Shown here in pieces: positions 47,705 through 51,329 of a DNA stretch of 64,000 nt. The stretch spans positions 1,426,001-1,490,000 of the forward strand of contig NZ_CP042997.1 in the NCBI RefSeq assembly GCF_008087625.1, given 5' to 3'. This DNA is from Aquisphaera giovannonii. GTDB taxonomy: Bacteria; Planctomycetota; Planctomycetia; Isosphaerales; Isosphaeraceae. Under the pieces are notes generated by a model. It was not told the DNA's origin. It ran no database searches and saw nothing but the letters and a program-made list of their open reading frames with translations. A program made the translations under genes and the position numbers. Positions within the stretch are counted from its first letter, which is position 1. Each line of letters opens with the position of its first letter.

Positions 47705-49024
47705 GTGGCAAAGACCACCCACCGACGCGAATTCCTCCGCGAACTGGGCATCGGCGCGGGCGCGATCCCGTTCCTGCTCAACCTGCCGAGCCTGGGCTTC
47801 GCCAACCAGGTGAAGCGGAAGAAGCGACTCGTGCTCATGTTCAGCCCCAACGGCGTGTTCCCGGGTGCCTTCTGGCCGGACGCGGAGGGGAAGGACTTCG
47901 CCCTCAAGGAGAGCCTCAAGCCGCTCGAGCCGTTCAAGAGCAAGACCCTGATCCTGCACGGCGTCTGCGACAAGGTCCGCGGCGACGGCGACAACCACAT
48001 GCGGGGCATGGGCTGCCTGCTGACCGGCTCGGAGCTCTTCCCCGGGAACATCCAGGGGGGCTCGGACACGCCGGCCGGCTGGTCGAGCGGGCTGTCGATC
48101 GACCAGGAGATCAAGGGCTTCCTCCAGAAGGACCCGGCCACGAGGACCCGGTTCGGCTCGCTGGAGCTGGGCGTGATGGTCCCCGAGCGTGCCGACACCT
48201 GGACCCGATGGGTCTACGCCGGCCCGAACAAGCCGATCGCGCCGATCGACAACCCGTACCGGGCGTTCTCGAAGCTCTACGGCCGGGTGAAGGACCAGGA
48301 GAACCTCCGGAGCGTCCTCGACGACATCCAGGCGGACCTCGGCAAGATCCGCTCGGCCGTCTCCGCGGAGGACCGCCAGATCCTGGAGGAGCACGCCACC
48401 TTCGTCCGAGAGATGGAGCAGGAGCTCCAGGCCTCCTCGAAGGACCCGATCGCCCACGCCGTCCCCGAGCTCGAGCCGGGGGTGCGCGAGGACAACGACA
48501 ATATGCCCAAGATCAGCAAGATGCAGATCGAGCTGATGGTGCAGTCCTTCGCCGCCGACTTCACCCGGGTCGCATCGCTCCAGTACACCAACTCCGTCGG
48601 CATGGCGCGGATGCGGTGGCTGGGAATCAACGAGGGGCACCACGAGCTCTCGCACAACCCGGACTCGGACAAGGCGTCCGTCGAGAAGCTGATCAAGATC
48701 AACACGTGGTTCTGCGATCAGCTCGCCTACCTCGCGAAGCGCCTCTCGGAGACCCCCGAGCCGGGCGGCGGCGGCTCCCTGCTGGACAACACGACGATCC
48801 TGTGGACGAACGAGCTGGGCAAGGGGAACTCGCACACGCTGGACAACATCCCCTTCGTCCTCGTCGGCGAGGGCCTCGGCTTCCAGATGGGCCGCTCCTT
48901 GAAGTACAAGAAGGTCCCGCATAACCGTCTCTTGCTGTCCCTGGCCCACGCCTTCGGCCACGACATCAAGAAGTTCGGCAACCCCGACTTCTGCGGCGAG
49001 GGGCCGCTGTCGGGGCTGACCTGA
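47705..49024 (+). CDS. DUF1552 family Tat-exported protein
   Basis: A 439-residue protein from GTG 47705; GGAGG at 47694-47698 gives good spacing. Twin-arginine-like start [20 protein letters not shown]. The DUF1552 body has [57 protein letters not shown], and FVLVGEGLG. It belongs to the same fold group as DUF1501. Follows the DUF1592 gene by 84 nt and is its standard partner. Exported to the periplasm; substrate unknown. Confidence 0.92.
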
Positions 49025-49042
49025 GCCGATGGAGCCTGTCGG

Positions 49043-49070
49043 GGCACGTCGCCGGGCATGGCGACGTGCC
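49043..49070. terminator. Bidirectional hairpin between convergent genes
   Basis: GGCACGTCGCC (49043-49053) pairs perfectly with GGCGACGTGCC (49060-49070), 11 bp around a 6-nt loop. It lies 19 nt after the DUF1552 stop and 18 nt before the end of the VapC remnant. Only two Ts follow. Confidence 0.55.
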
Positions 49071-49087
49071 TTGGACTCTGGTCCGTC

Positions 49088-49243
49088 CTAAGGCGCGAGC
49101 CAGTCGGCGAGCCGCAGCCCCGGGATCTGCTCGTAGTCGATCGTATTGTGCGTCACGAGCGTCATGTCATGAGTCAGGGCGACGGACGCGATCATCAAGT
49201 CCGCGATGGGGACGAGGATGTTCGTATCGAGGAGGTGGGTCAT
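49088..49243 (-). pseudogene. VapC-type PIN toxin with a large internal deletion
   Basis: Reads 51 codons from ATG 49243: [11 protein letters not shown], the exact start of a VapC PIN domain with its first catalytic Asp, joined directly to [20 protein letters not shown] and [17 protein letters not shown], its normal C-terminus. Some 80 residues in the middle, including the conserved Glu, are missing, while the frame is kept. The ATG overlaps the antitoxin stop (ATGA, 49240-49243), the standard arrangement of these operons. The product is unlikely to be a ribonuclease but could still bind the antitoxin. Confidence 0.8.
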
Positions 49244-49485
49244 CCCTCCTCCATCTGAGGGCGTCGCTCGAGTTTCCTCGCCCGGTGGATCTCCTCCATG
49301 ATGCCGTCGAAGTCCGGGTCATCGGCCATCGCGCCGGCGGATCGGAGGATGCCATCACCCCATGGCCTGGTTGGCGGCACGGCCTCGACGCGGACCTCGA
49401 CCTCCTGCCCCTCGGCCATGCCGAGGTCCTCCTTCAACTCGATCGTCTTCCCGCGAATGACGCCGCGTGCAAGAGTTACACCCAT
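49240..49485 (-). CDS. VapB/AF2212-like antitoxin
   Basis: An 81-residue protein from ATG 49485; a longer upstream extension in frame is basic and unlikely. [20 protein letters not shown] then [14 protein letters not shown] is the short beta-rich DNA-binding N-terminus typical of this antitoxin class. The acidic/helical C-terminus ([20 protein letters not shown]) would wrap the PIN toxin. Together with the overlapping VapC remnant it forms a decayed type II toxin-antitoxin operon. Confidence 0.75.
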
Positions 49486-49580
49486 GGCTCGCCTCCCGAG
49501 ACGCAGGACTGACCGCGTCACCGTACATCTTCGCATCGAGGTACGGTCATTCGCCAGGCGAGCATCGTACCTACTCGAGC

Positions 49581-51329
49581 TCAAGACACCGGCTTGATCG
49601 TTGCCTCGCCCTGTTCCGCCAGGAATCGCTCCAGCGGCGGGTGGACCCGGTGGTGGCCGGTGGCCTGCTGGTAGGCGTGGGCGACGGCCAGCAGGGTGGA
49701 CTCGTCGTGGAGGCGGCCGGTGAGGGTGACGGAGCGCGGGCCGGGGCGGCCGTTGATGTCGCGCAGCGGGCCGGGGAAGACGGCCGTGGGATGGCCGGTG
49801 AGGTTAGTGATCACGAGGTCGTCCCCGGCGCCGACGTAGACGTCCACGGCCTCCATCAGCCGGGCCATCGACCGCATGAGCAGGGTCCGCGCCCGCGAGG
49901 CGCGGAGGTACTCAACCGCCGGGATGAACTGGCCCTCCAGGAACGTGGCGGGCCACTCATTCAGGCCCTCGGTGACGTGGTTCCGCGTCAGCTCGTCGAA
50001 CGCCGCGGCGCACTCGGCGGTCAGCATGATGAGGATGTCGCGCGCGGGCACGTCCCTGGGCAGCTCGATCGGACGCGGGTCGAGGCCCAGCGACTTCAGG
50101 ACGTGCAGCTCCTCGCGGCGGTCGGCCGGCCGCTGGGGATCCTCGACGTAGCCGATCCTGAGGCCCGACAAGTCTGCTTTCGGCGGCCAGGCGAACGGCT
50201 GATCGACGGCCGTCGCGTCGAGGCCGTCGTGGCCGTGGATCGCGTCGAAGACGAGCGCGCAGTCCTCGATGGATCGGGCGATCGGGCCGATCTTGTCCAT
50301 CGACCACGAGAGCGCCATGCAGCCGTGGCGGCTGACGCGCCCGAAGGTCGGCCGCAGGCCGGAGGTGCCGCAGGCCCGGCTGGGGGAGACGATGCTGCCG
50401 AGCGTCTCGCTGCCGATGGCGAAGCCGACGAGCCCCGCCGCGACCGCCGAGGCCGAGCCGGCCGACGAGCCGCTCGAGCCCCGGCGCGGATCCCAGGGGC
50501 TCCGGGTCTGGCCGCCGTACCATCTATCCCCCATCGCCAGGGCGCCCAGGCTGAGCTTGGCCACGAGCACCGCACCGGCCTCTTCCAGCCGGGCGGCGAC
50601 GGTCGCCTTCTCGTCGATCACCCGCCCCTTGAACTGCGGCGCGCCCCAGCCGGTGGGATAGCCGGGGTAGGCGATCAGGTCCTTCGCCCCCCACGGGATG
50701 CCGTGCAGCGGGCCGCGGTACTTGCCGGCGGCGATCTCCGCGTCCGCGGCCGCCGCCTGCTTCATCGCCAGGTCCTCGGTGAGCGTCACCACGCACTTGA
50801 GGACCGGGTCGAACCGCCGAAGCCGGGCGAGGTAGAGCTTCGTCAGCTCGGTCGAGGTCACCTCCCGGGTGCGGACGAGCCCCGCCAGCTCGGAGACCGG
50901 GAGGAAGGCCAGCTCCTCGTCGCCGGCCGGCCGCGACGCGACGGTGGCGGTGATCGGCGTCGCCCCGCCTCGCGACACGCCCGACGCGGGCCGGAGCCCG
51001 GGCGCGGGGACGAACGAGAGCGCCGGCGGGACGTCGTAAGGGATCGCGACCTCGCGGAGCGCCCGGAAGGAGGCGGTCGTCCCCTTCAGCTCCGCGACCG
51101 CCTGCTCGCGCTCCCCGTCCGTGAGCGAGAGCCCGGCGATCCACTCGGCCTGGCGGACCATCTCCGCCGTGACCGCGCCGGCCTGGGCCGCCTGCGCCGC
51201 GAGGGCCCGGCGGAAGGTCGCCGTCCCGACGCCCAGGGCCCCGATCGCCGCGCGGCGGCCCATCGGGGACCCGCCATGCCGGGCGGCCGGCCCGGCCCCA
51301 TCCCCTCGATCATCCGTTCGGTTGTTCAT
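49581..51329 (-). CDS. Amidase signature family protein, probably exported
   Basis: A 582-residue protein from ATG 51329. The Arg-rich N-terminus before IGALGVGTATFRRALAAQ (MGRRAAIGAL, about residues 23-40) is compatible with a Tat signal, though without the strict SRRxFLK motif. After a linker, the amidase signature region has the catalytic Lys in GIPWGAKDLIAYPG, then GSSGSSAGSASAVAAGL and GSETLGSIVSPSRACG for the Ser-cisSer-Lys triad. Such enzymes hydrolyse amides (amino-acid amides, nitrile-derived amides, or the Gln-tRNA amidotransferase reaction). Not the GatA subunit: the N-terminal extension and lack of gatB/gatC argue against it. Substrate unknown. Confidence 0.85.
   Translation of the reverse strand: MNNRTDDRGDGAGPAARHGGSPMGRRAAIGALGVGTATFRRALAAQAAQAGAVTAEMVRQAEWIAGLSLTDGEREQAVAELKGTTASFRALREVAIPYDVPPALSFVPAPGLRPASGVSRGGATPITATVASRPAGDEELAFLPVSELAGLVRTREVTSTELTKLYLARLRRFDPVLKCVVTLTEDLAMKQAAAADAEIAAGKYRGPLHGIPWGAKDLIAYPGYPTGWGAPQFKGRVIDEKATVAARLEEAGAVLVAKLSLGALAMGDRWYGGQTRSPWDPRRGSSGSSAGSASAVAAGLVGFAIGSETLGSIVSPSRACGTSGLRPTFGRVSRHGCMALSWSMDKIGPIARSIEDCALVFDAIHGHDGLDATAVDQPFAWPPKADLSGLRIGYVEDPQRPADRREELHVLKSLGLDPRPIELPRDVPARDILIMLTAECAAAFDELTRNHVTEGLNEWPATFLEGQFIPAVEYLRASRARTLLMRSMARLMEAVDVYVGAGDDLVITNLTGHPTAVFPGPLRDINGRPGPRSVTLTGRLHDESTLLAVAHAYQQATGHHRVHPPLERFLAEQGEATIKPVS

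Follow-up and report, generated by a model that had tools for sequence, protein, structure and literature searches.

The closest described relatives of the locus analysed here are the tRNA(fMet)-specific VapBC modules (models NF047863 and NF010285; structures 3tnd and 6sd6), with which it shares both the antitoxin-toxin gene order and a 4-base overlap between the two genes. The pairing of a small antitoxin with a PIN toxin is likewise found among the AbrB-like DUF104/COG2880 antitoxins of PMC2701414, where the authors' reply to a reviewer on dead toxin-antitoxin (TA) systems adds that truncations are difficult to recognize and that antitoxins often occur alone. Orphan antitoxins have been counted in Klebsiella, 2253 in all, and the explanations offered for them in PMC7192599 are that they represent remnants or that they act in anti-addiction. 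A limited literature search returned no paper on an in-frame deletion in, or a truncated toxin of, VapC. Here we describe a locus in the window (the whole 64,000-nucleotide stretch of DNA analysed; G000:C1:1426001-1490000, from a 10.5 Mb host genome assembled in three contigs and 99.94% complete) that is very probably a decayed type II VapBC module, in which a toxin remnant lies beside an apparently intact antitoxin. The features of the locus are as follows.

49240..49485, minus strand: VapB-like antitoxin gene, 81 aa, apparently intact, with no Pfam, NCBIfam or PADLOC match (reading frame, relatives, invariant columns)
49088..49243, minus strand: 51-aa remnant of a VapC toxin, with an uninterrupted frame between the native start and stop codons (reading frame, model and relative matches, alignment)
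49240..49243, minus strand: ATGA, in which the antitoxin stop overlaps the toxin start (sequence; the same -4 overlap in 18 of 18 whole modules surveyed)
49210..49219, minus strand: approximate deletion junction between DTNI and VPIADLM, exact breakpoint ambiguous (alignment, codon comparison)
49025..49580, unstranded: 556-base interval from the DUF1552 gene to the amidase gene, containing the module (reading frames; the counterpart in genome G002 is 48 bases)
49043..49070, unstranded: inverted repeat with perfect 11-bp arms around a 6-base loop, in the stretch where the toxin remnant and the DUF1552 gene converge (repeat search)

Both minus-strand reading frames lie where a preliminary description had placed them (49088-49485; sequence and ORF list), the antitoxin starting with an ATG at 49485 and terminating at 49240-49242, and the toxin, whose N-terminal residues read MTHLLDTNI, starting at 49243-49241 (ATG) and terminating at 49090-49088. 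The 556 bases that hold them separate the end of the DUF1552 gene at 49024 (plus strand) from that of the amidase gene at 49581 (minus strand), and a domain search of the neighbouring genes identifies PSD/PSCyt, DUF1552, amidase and GFO/IDH domains, a set that we take to be planctomycete-type. The inverted repeat at 49043-49070 is possibly a terminator, with no T run detected; a consensus search found no terminator-like site at the locus.

That description had read the locus as a VapBC-type operon with an intact antitoxin and a toxin that keeps its native ends around an in-frame central deletion, and had proposed comparison with intact homologues as a check; the comparison bears out the reading on each point. 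The antitoxin lies upstream and overlaps the toxin exactly as in every whole module surveyed, and nine intact toxin relatives (alignment A4), 132 residues long in six cases and 133 in three, define the missing part. Against these, the window toxin lacks 81-82 central residues with the frame kept, a deletion of about 243 bases that spares the initial eight to eleven residues and about forty at the C-terminal end. The best-scoring split points fall after residue 10 or 11, with 9 and 8 close behind, and the breakpoint cannot be placed because there is no orthologous whole copy. Direct repeats or microhomology at the deletion ends are not claimed, as a codon comparison with 11 relatives yields several equally good junctions.

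What is left of the toxin is nevertheless readily recognized. One relative aligns with residues 3-51 at E=5.4e-17, and the NCBIfam tRNA(fMet) VapC model with residues 14-48 at E=7.2e-9 (36 bits against a cut-off of 140); judged by sequence similarity, the resemblance of the 51-residue ORF to VapC relatives is far beyond chance. A complete PIN domain of ~130 residues is not found, the Pfam PIN match extending over 24 residues at 18.1 bits (cut-off 23.6). All nine intact relatives match two NCBIfam tRNA(fMet) VapC models, including one (L007) that at 85.9 bits itself falls below the cut-off of 140, and an intact relative aligns end to end with 3tnd, a tRNA(fMet)-type VapC of solved structure (E=1.5e-14). 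The nine intact toxins share 41 invariant columns. The deletion has removed 20 of these, among them E40 (residue 42 of 3tnd in the alignment). Of the 21 that remain, the window agrees at 20 and has Met in place of Leu at the other; as a control each intact relative was left out in turn, with 0 to 3 misses. Residues 7, 42 and 98 of tRNA(fMet) VapC (D7, E42, D98) are presumably the catalytic acids; this set is incomplete in the remnant, which retains D6 and the C-terminal Asp and has lost E40.

The antitoxin, by comparison, retains all 15 columns invariant in six relatives. Its best match outside its own genome has E=1.5e-27, and relatives turned up in two separate searches, one giving 15 of 59 genomes and the other, confined to the family, 20 of 45. 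A scan of genome contigs with exact peptide patterns, whose reach is close relatives, returned one relative beyond the host genome, on an uncultured Schlesneria contig (L043) that is also the closest named relative of the module; a search of viral contigs with the A4 profile gave 36 pattern matches and no confirmed relative. The antitoxin has no match to known antitoxin families (AbrB, RHH, Phd/YefM and others) in Pfam, NCBIfam or PADLOC, the last of which has no match for the intact toxin either; a profile search of the PDB gave a best match of only E=0.53, and structure modelling of the antitoxin and one relative reached a pLDDT of 59.2, too low to be of use. Its N-terminal part may resemble DUF104, a Pfam family matched by none of seven members of the antitoxin family. 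As a separate observation, this family, absent from Pfam, NCBIfam, PADLOC and (by profile) the PDB, pairs with a whole tRNA(fMet)-type VapC in 18 places.

To place the locus among its relatives, a profile built from seven antitoxins was searched against 45 family genomes with a cut-off of E 1e-8, and the DNA flanking each antitoxin was compared with the nine intact toxins. The survey yielded 36 antitoxin places in 20 genomes: a whole toxin frame adjoins 18, a broken one 11 (the window included) and none 6, and one lies at a contig end. 'Whole' here denotes the lack of an internal stop and does not require a start codon, which in G002:C241 reads CTG. Of the 35 antitoxin relatives that could be assessed, 17 accordingly stand next to a broken toxin or none at all, a figure that starts from antitoxins and therefore does not allow the loss rates of toxins and antitoxins to be compared. 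The places lacking a whole toxin, and the one at a contig end, are these.

Window: broken toxin, in-frame central deletion
G000:5328958: broken toxin, last 39 residues or so remain, with stop
G028: broken toxin, start missing, frame shift
G035:C233: broken toxin, stop
G027:7780990: broken toxin, stop and shift
G066: broken toxin, start missing; contig end nearby
G061: broken toxin, shift
G035:C5: broken toxin, residues 1-30 only
G008: broken toxin, stop
G059:C252: broken toxin, shift
G026: broken toxin, last ten residues, E=0.009, weak
G006:30539: no adjacent toxin; another whole module follows
G059:8520: no adjacent toxin; another whole module follows
G000:854642: no adjacent toxin
G064:C78: no adjacent toxin
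G016:C72: no adjacent toxin
G006:C209: no adjacent toxin; next ORF PIN-like by eye
G001: not assessable, contig end

Several of the survey genomes are drafts, in which single-base stops or shifts may be errors; the G000 and G027 cases come from assemblies of three and four contigs. Of all 11 broken copies, the window toxin alone can be read through from its native start codon to its native stop. In two genomes (L006, G006:C475; L057, G059:C892) a toxin-less antitoxin of the family stands directly upstream of a whole antitoxin-toxin module. Matches weaker than E=1e-8 were excluded from the count, among them one at E=0.0056 in the host genome (G000:C1:4764864). At that place (L004, 4764864-4765510) a VapC-like frame downstream of a distant antitoxin can be aligned with residues 1-115 of 132 before it breaks off, perhaps another shortened toxin.

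All three antitoxins that the survey found in the host genome (E 1e-8 or better) are without a whole toxin. One of them, G000:C1:5328958 (L053, 5325000-5334000), is collinear at ~81-84% identity with a module of the same-genus genome G002 (G002:C212:34906, L055) whose toxin is whole; 306 bases are missing from the host copy, which has thereby lost the end of the antitoxin and most of the toxin, and at the breakpoint just three consecutive bases match both G002 flanks. The third, at 854642, has no toxin adjoining.

The window site itself can be followed into G002, where the same four neighbours (GFO/IDH, amidase, DUF1552 and cytochrome/PSD protein) occur in the same order at 78-92% identity and the 48 bases between the amidase and DUF1552 genes contain no module. 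By this one comparison, the cassette was either gained in G000 or lost in G002. It has a G+C content of 0.649, lower than the 0.721 of the window but near the 0.664 of the DUF1552 gene, so that composition is not decisive on gain or loss. Six further genomes were fetched at the amidase locus with 1.5 kb flanks (L046-L051); the other three neighbours are not found in the fetched stretch, which is therefore uninformative on the window site.

Taken as it stands, the locus is a degraded TA locus with an orphan antitoxin: the antitoxin is whole, the adjoining toxin is broken and whole relatives occur elsewhere. The toxin frame is most likely an ordinary gene remnant, of a kind with related copies that break often. 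In the course of events that we propose, a small VapBC cassette, presumably gained at the window site rather than lost from G002, sits between the amidase and DUF1552 genes; an in-frame deletion of ~243 bases would then have taken out the centre of the toxin, and with it the essential acidic residue and most of the PIN fold, rendering the product probably inactive as an RNase. This would leave an orphan antitoxin, which may continue to be produced and to bind related VapC toxins. The break is probably recent, in keeping with a kept part that agrees at 20 of 21 invariant columns. Against decay, nothing interrupts the frame between the native start and stop codons, as would also be seen in a retained small protein, although a third of random deletions are expected to preserve the frame. 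Over the kept part (the last 39 codons) the non-synonymous difference (pN) averages 0.197 for the remnant (11 pairs) versus 0.169 among intact toxins (55 pairs), and one intact relative (L020) stands at 0.230, above the remnant mean; with the remnant only slightly higher and an intact toxin higher still, relaxed selection is not demonstrated. A recent event explains both the open frame and the pN values.

The antitoxin could instead have been kept as an anti-addiction gene, the toxin being disposable and the antitoxin selected for neutralizing related VapC toxins, whether incoming or resident. The conservation of its invariant columns, the near half of assessable antitoxins that stand without a whole toxin, the 19 further PIN-domain places in the host genome, and the orphan antitoxins and such a role discussed for Klebsiella in PMC7192599 are all consistent with it. 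However, a survey seeded with antitoxins cannot weigh how often each partner is lost, and since loss of the toxin necessarily comes first in decay, intact antitoxins are to be expected for a while even without selection. We regard selection for anti-addiction as rather unlikely.

The preliminary description had further suggested that the short protein may still be made and could bind the antitoxin or its promoter. As a retained regulator, the 51-residue protein would correspond to the C-terminal third of VapC, would bind the antitoxin and would tune promoter repression or stabilize the antitoxin, and the open frame with native ends, the preserved columns of the kept part and the preserved translational coupling at the ATGA all speak in its favour. 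Yet the deletion has cost 20 of the 41 invariant columns, toxins are broken or absent at 17 of 35 places, and the 11 broken toxins include no second clean in-frame miniature, so that retention of the short protein for a function is not supported. Upstream of the module, an inverted repeat at 49520-49547 is marginal (~0.07 of 60 mononucleotide shuffles), no counterpart ranks as the best repeat in any of 14 other upstream stretches (one only 55 bases long), and a consensus search of the locus found no promoter-like site. A single-sequence structure model, mainly one long helix of low confidence without a PIN fold (pLDDT 68.8, pTM 0.38), is uninformative rather than negative. Retention as a regulator is very unlikely. 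A shade less likely again is that the deletion created a small VapC derivative which, by binding the antitoxin, serves as a non-toxic co-repressor or sponge, so that what was a killing module would now be purely regulatory. The ORF alone changes little unless its product and a partner are shown.

An assembly artefact, with a whole toxin in the organism and 243 bases dropped by the assembler, is highly improbable given the three-contig, near-complete assembly, the lack of any repeat long enough to mislead an assembler (the longest direct repeats are 15 bases) and the frequency of toxin breakage in the family.

As a decayed module, the locus would offer a clear snapshot of how a TA module dies, with the toxin going first and the antitoxin staying. 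More useful than any single locus is the survey, which covers one planctomycete family and yields a collection of orphan antitoxins that could be assayed for neutralization of related toxins. Compared with the tRNA(fMet)-specific VapBC systems, whose NF047863 and NF010285 models are matched by the ends of the window toxin and by its nine intact relatives, the locus is distinguished by a toxin without ~81 central residues and by an antitoxin without a Pfam, NCBIfam, PADLOC or PDB match. Degraded TA loci and orphan antitoxins are already known, and the window is one more case: as in those described in Klebsiella and elsewhere, the antitoxin is kept and the toxin lost or broken. What sets it apart from those in PMC7192599 and PMC2701414 is that the remnant holds both native ends in one open frame.
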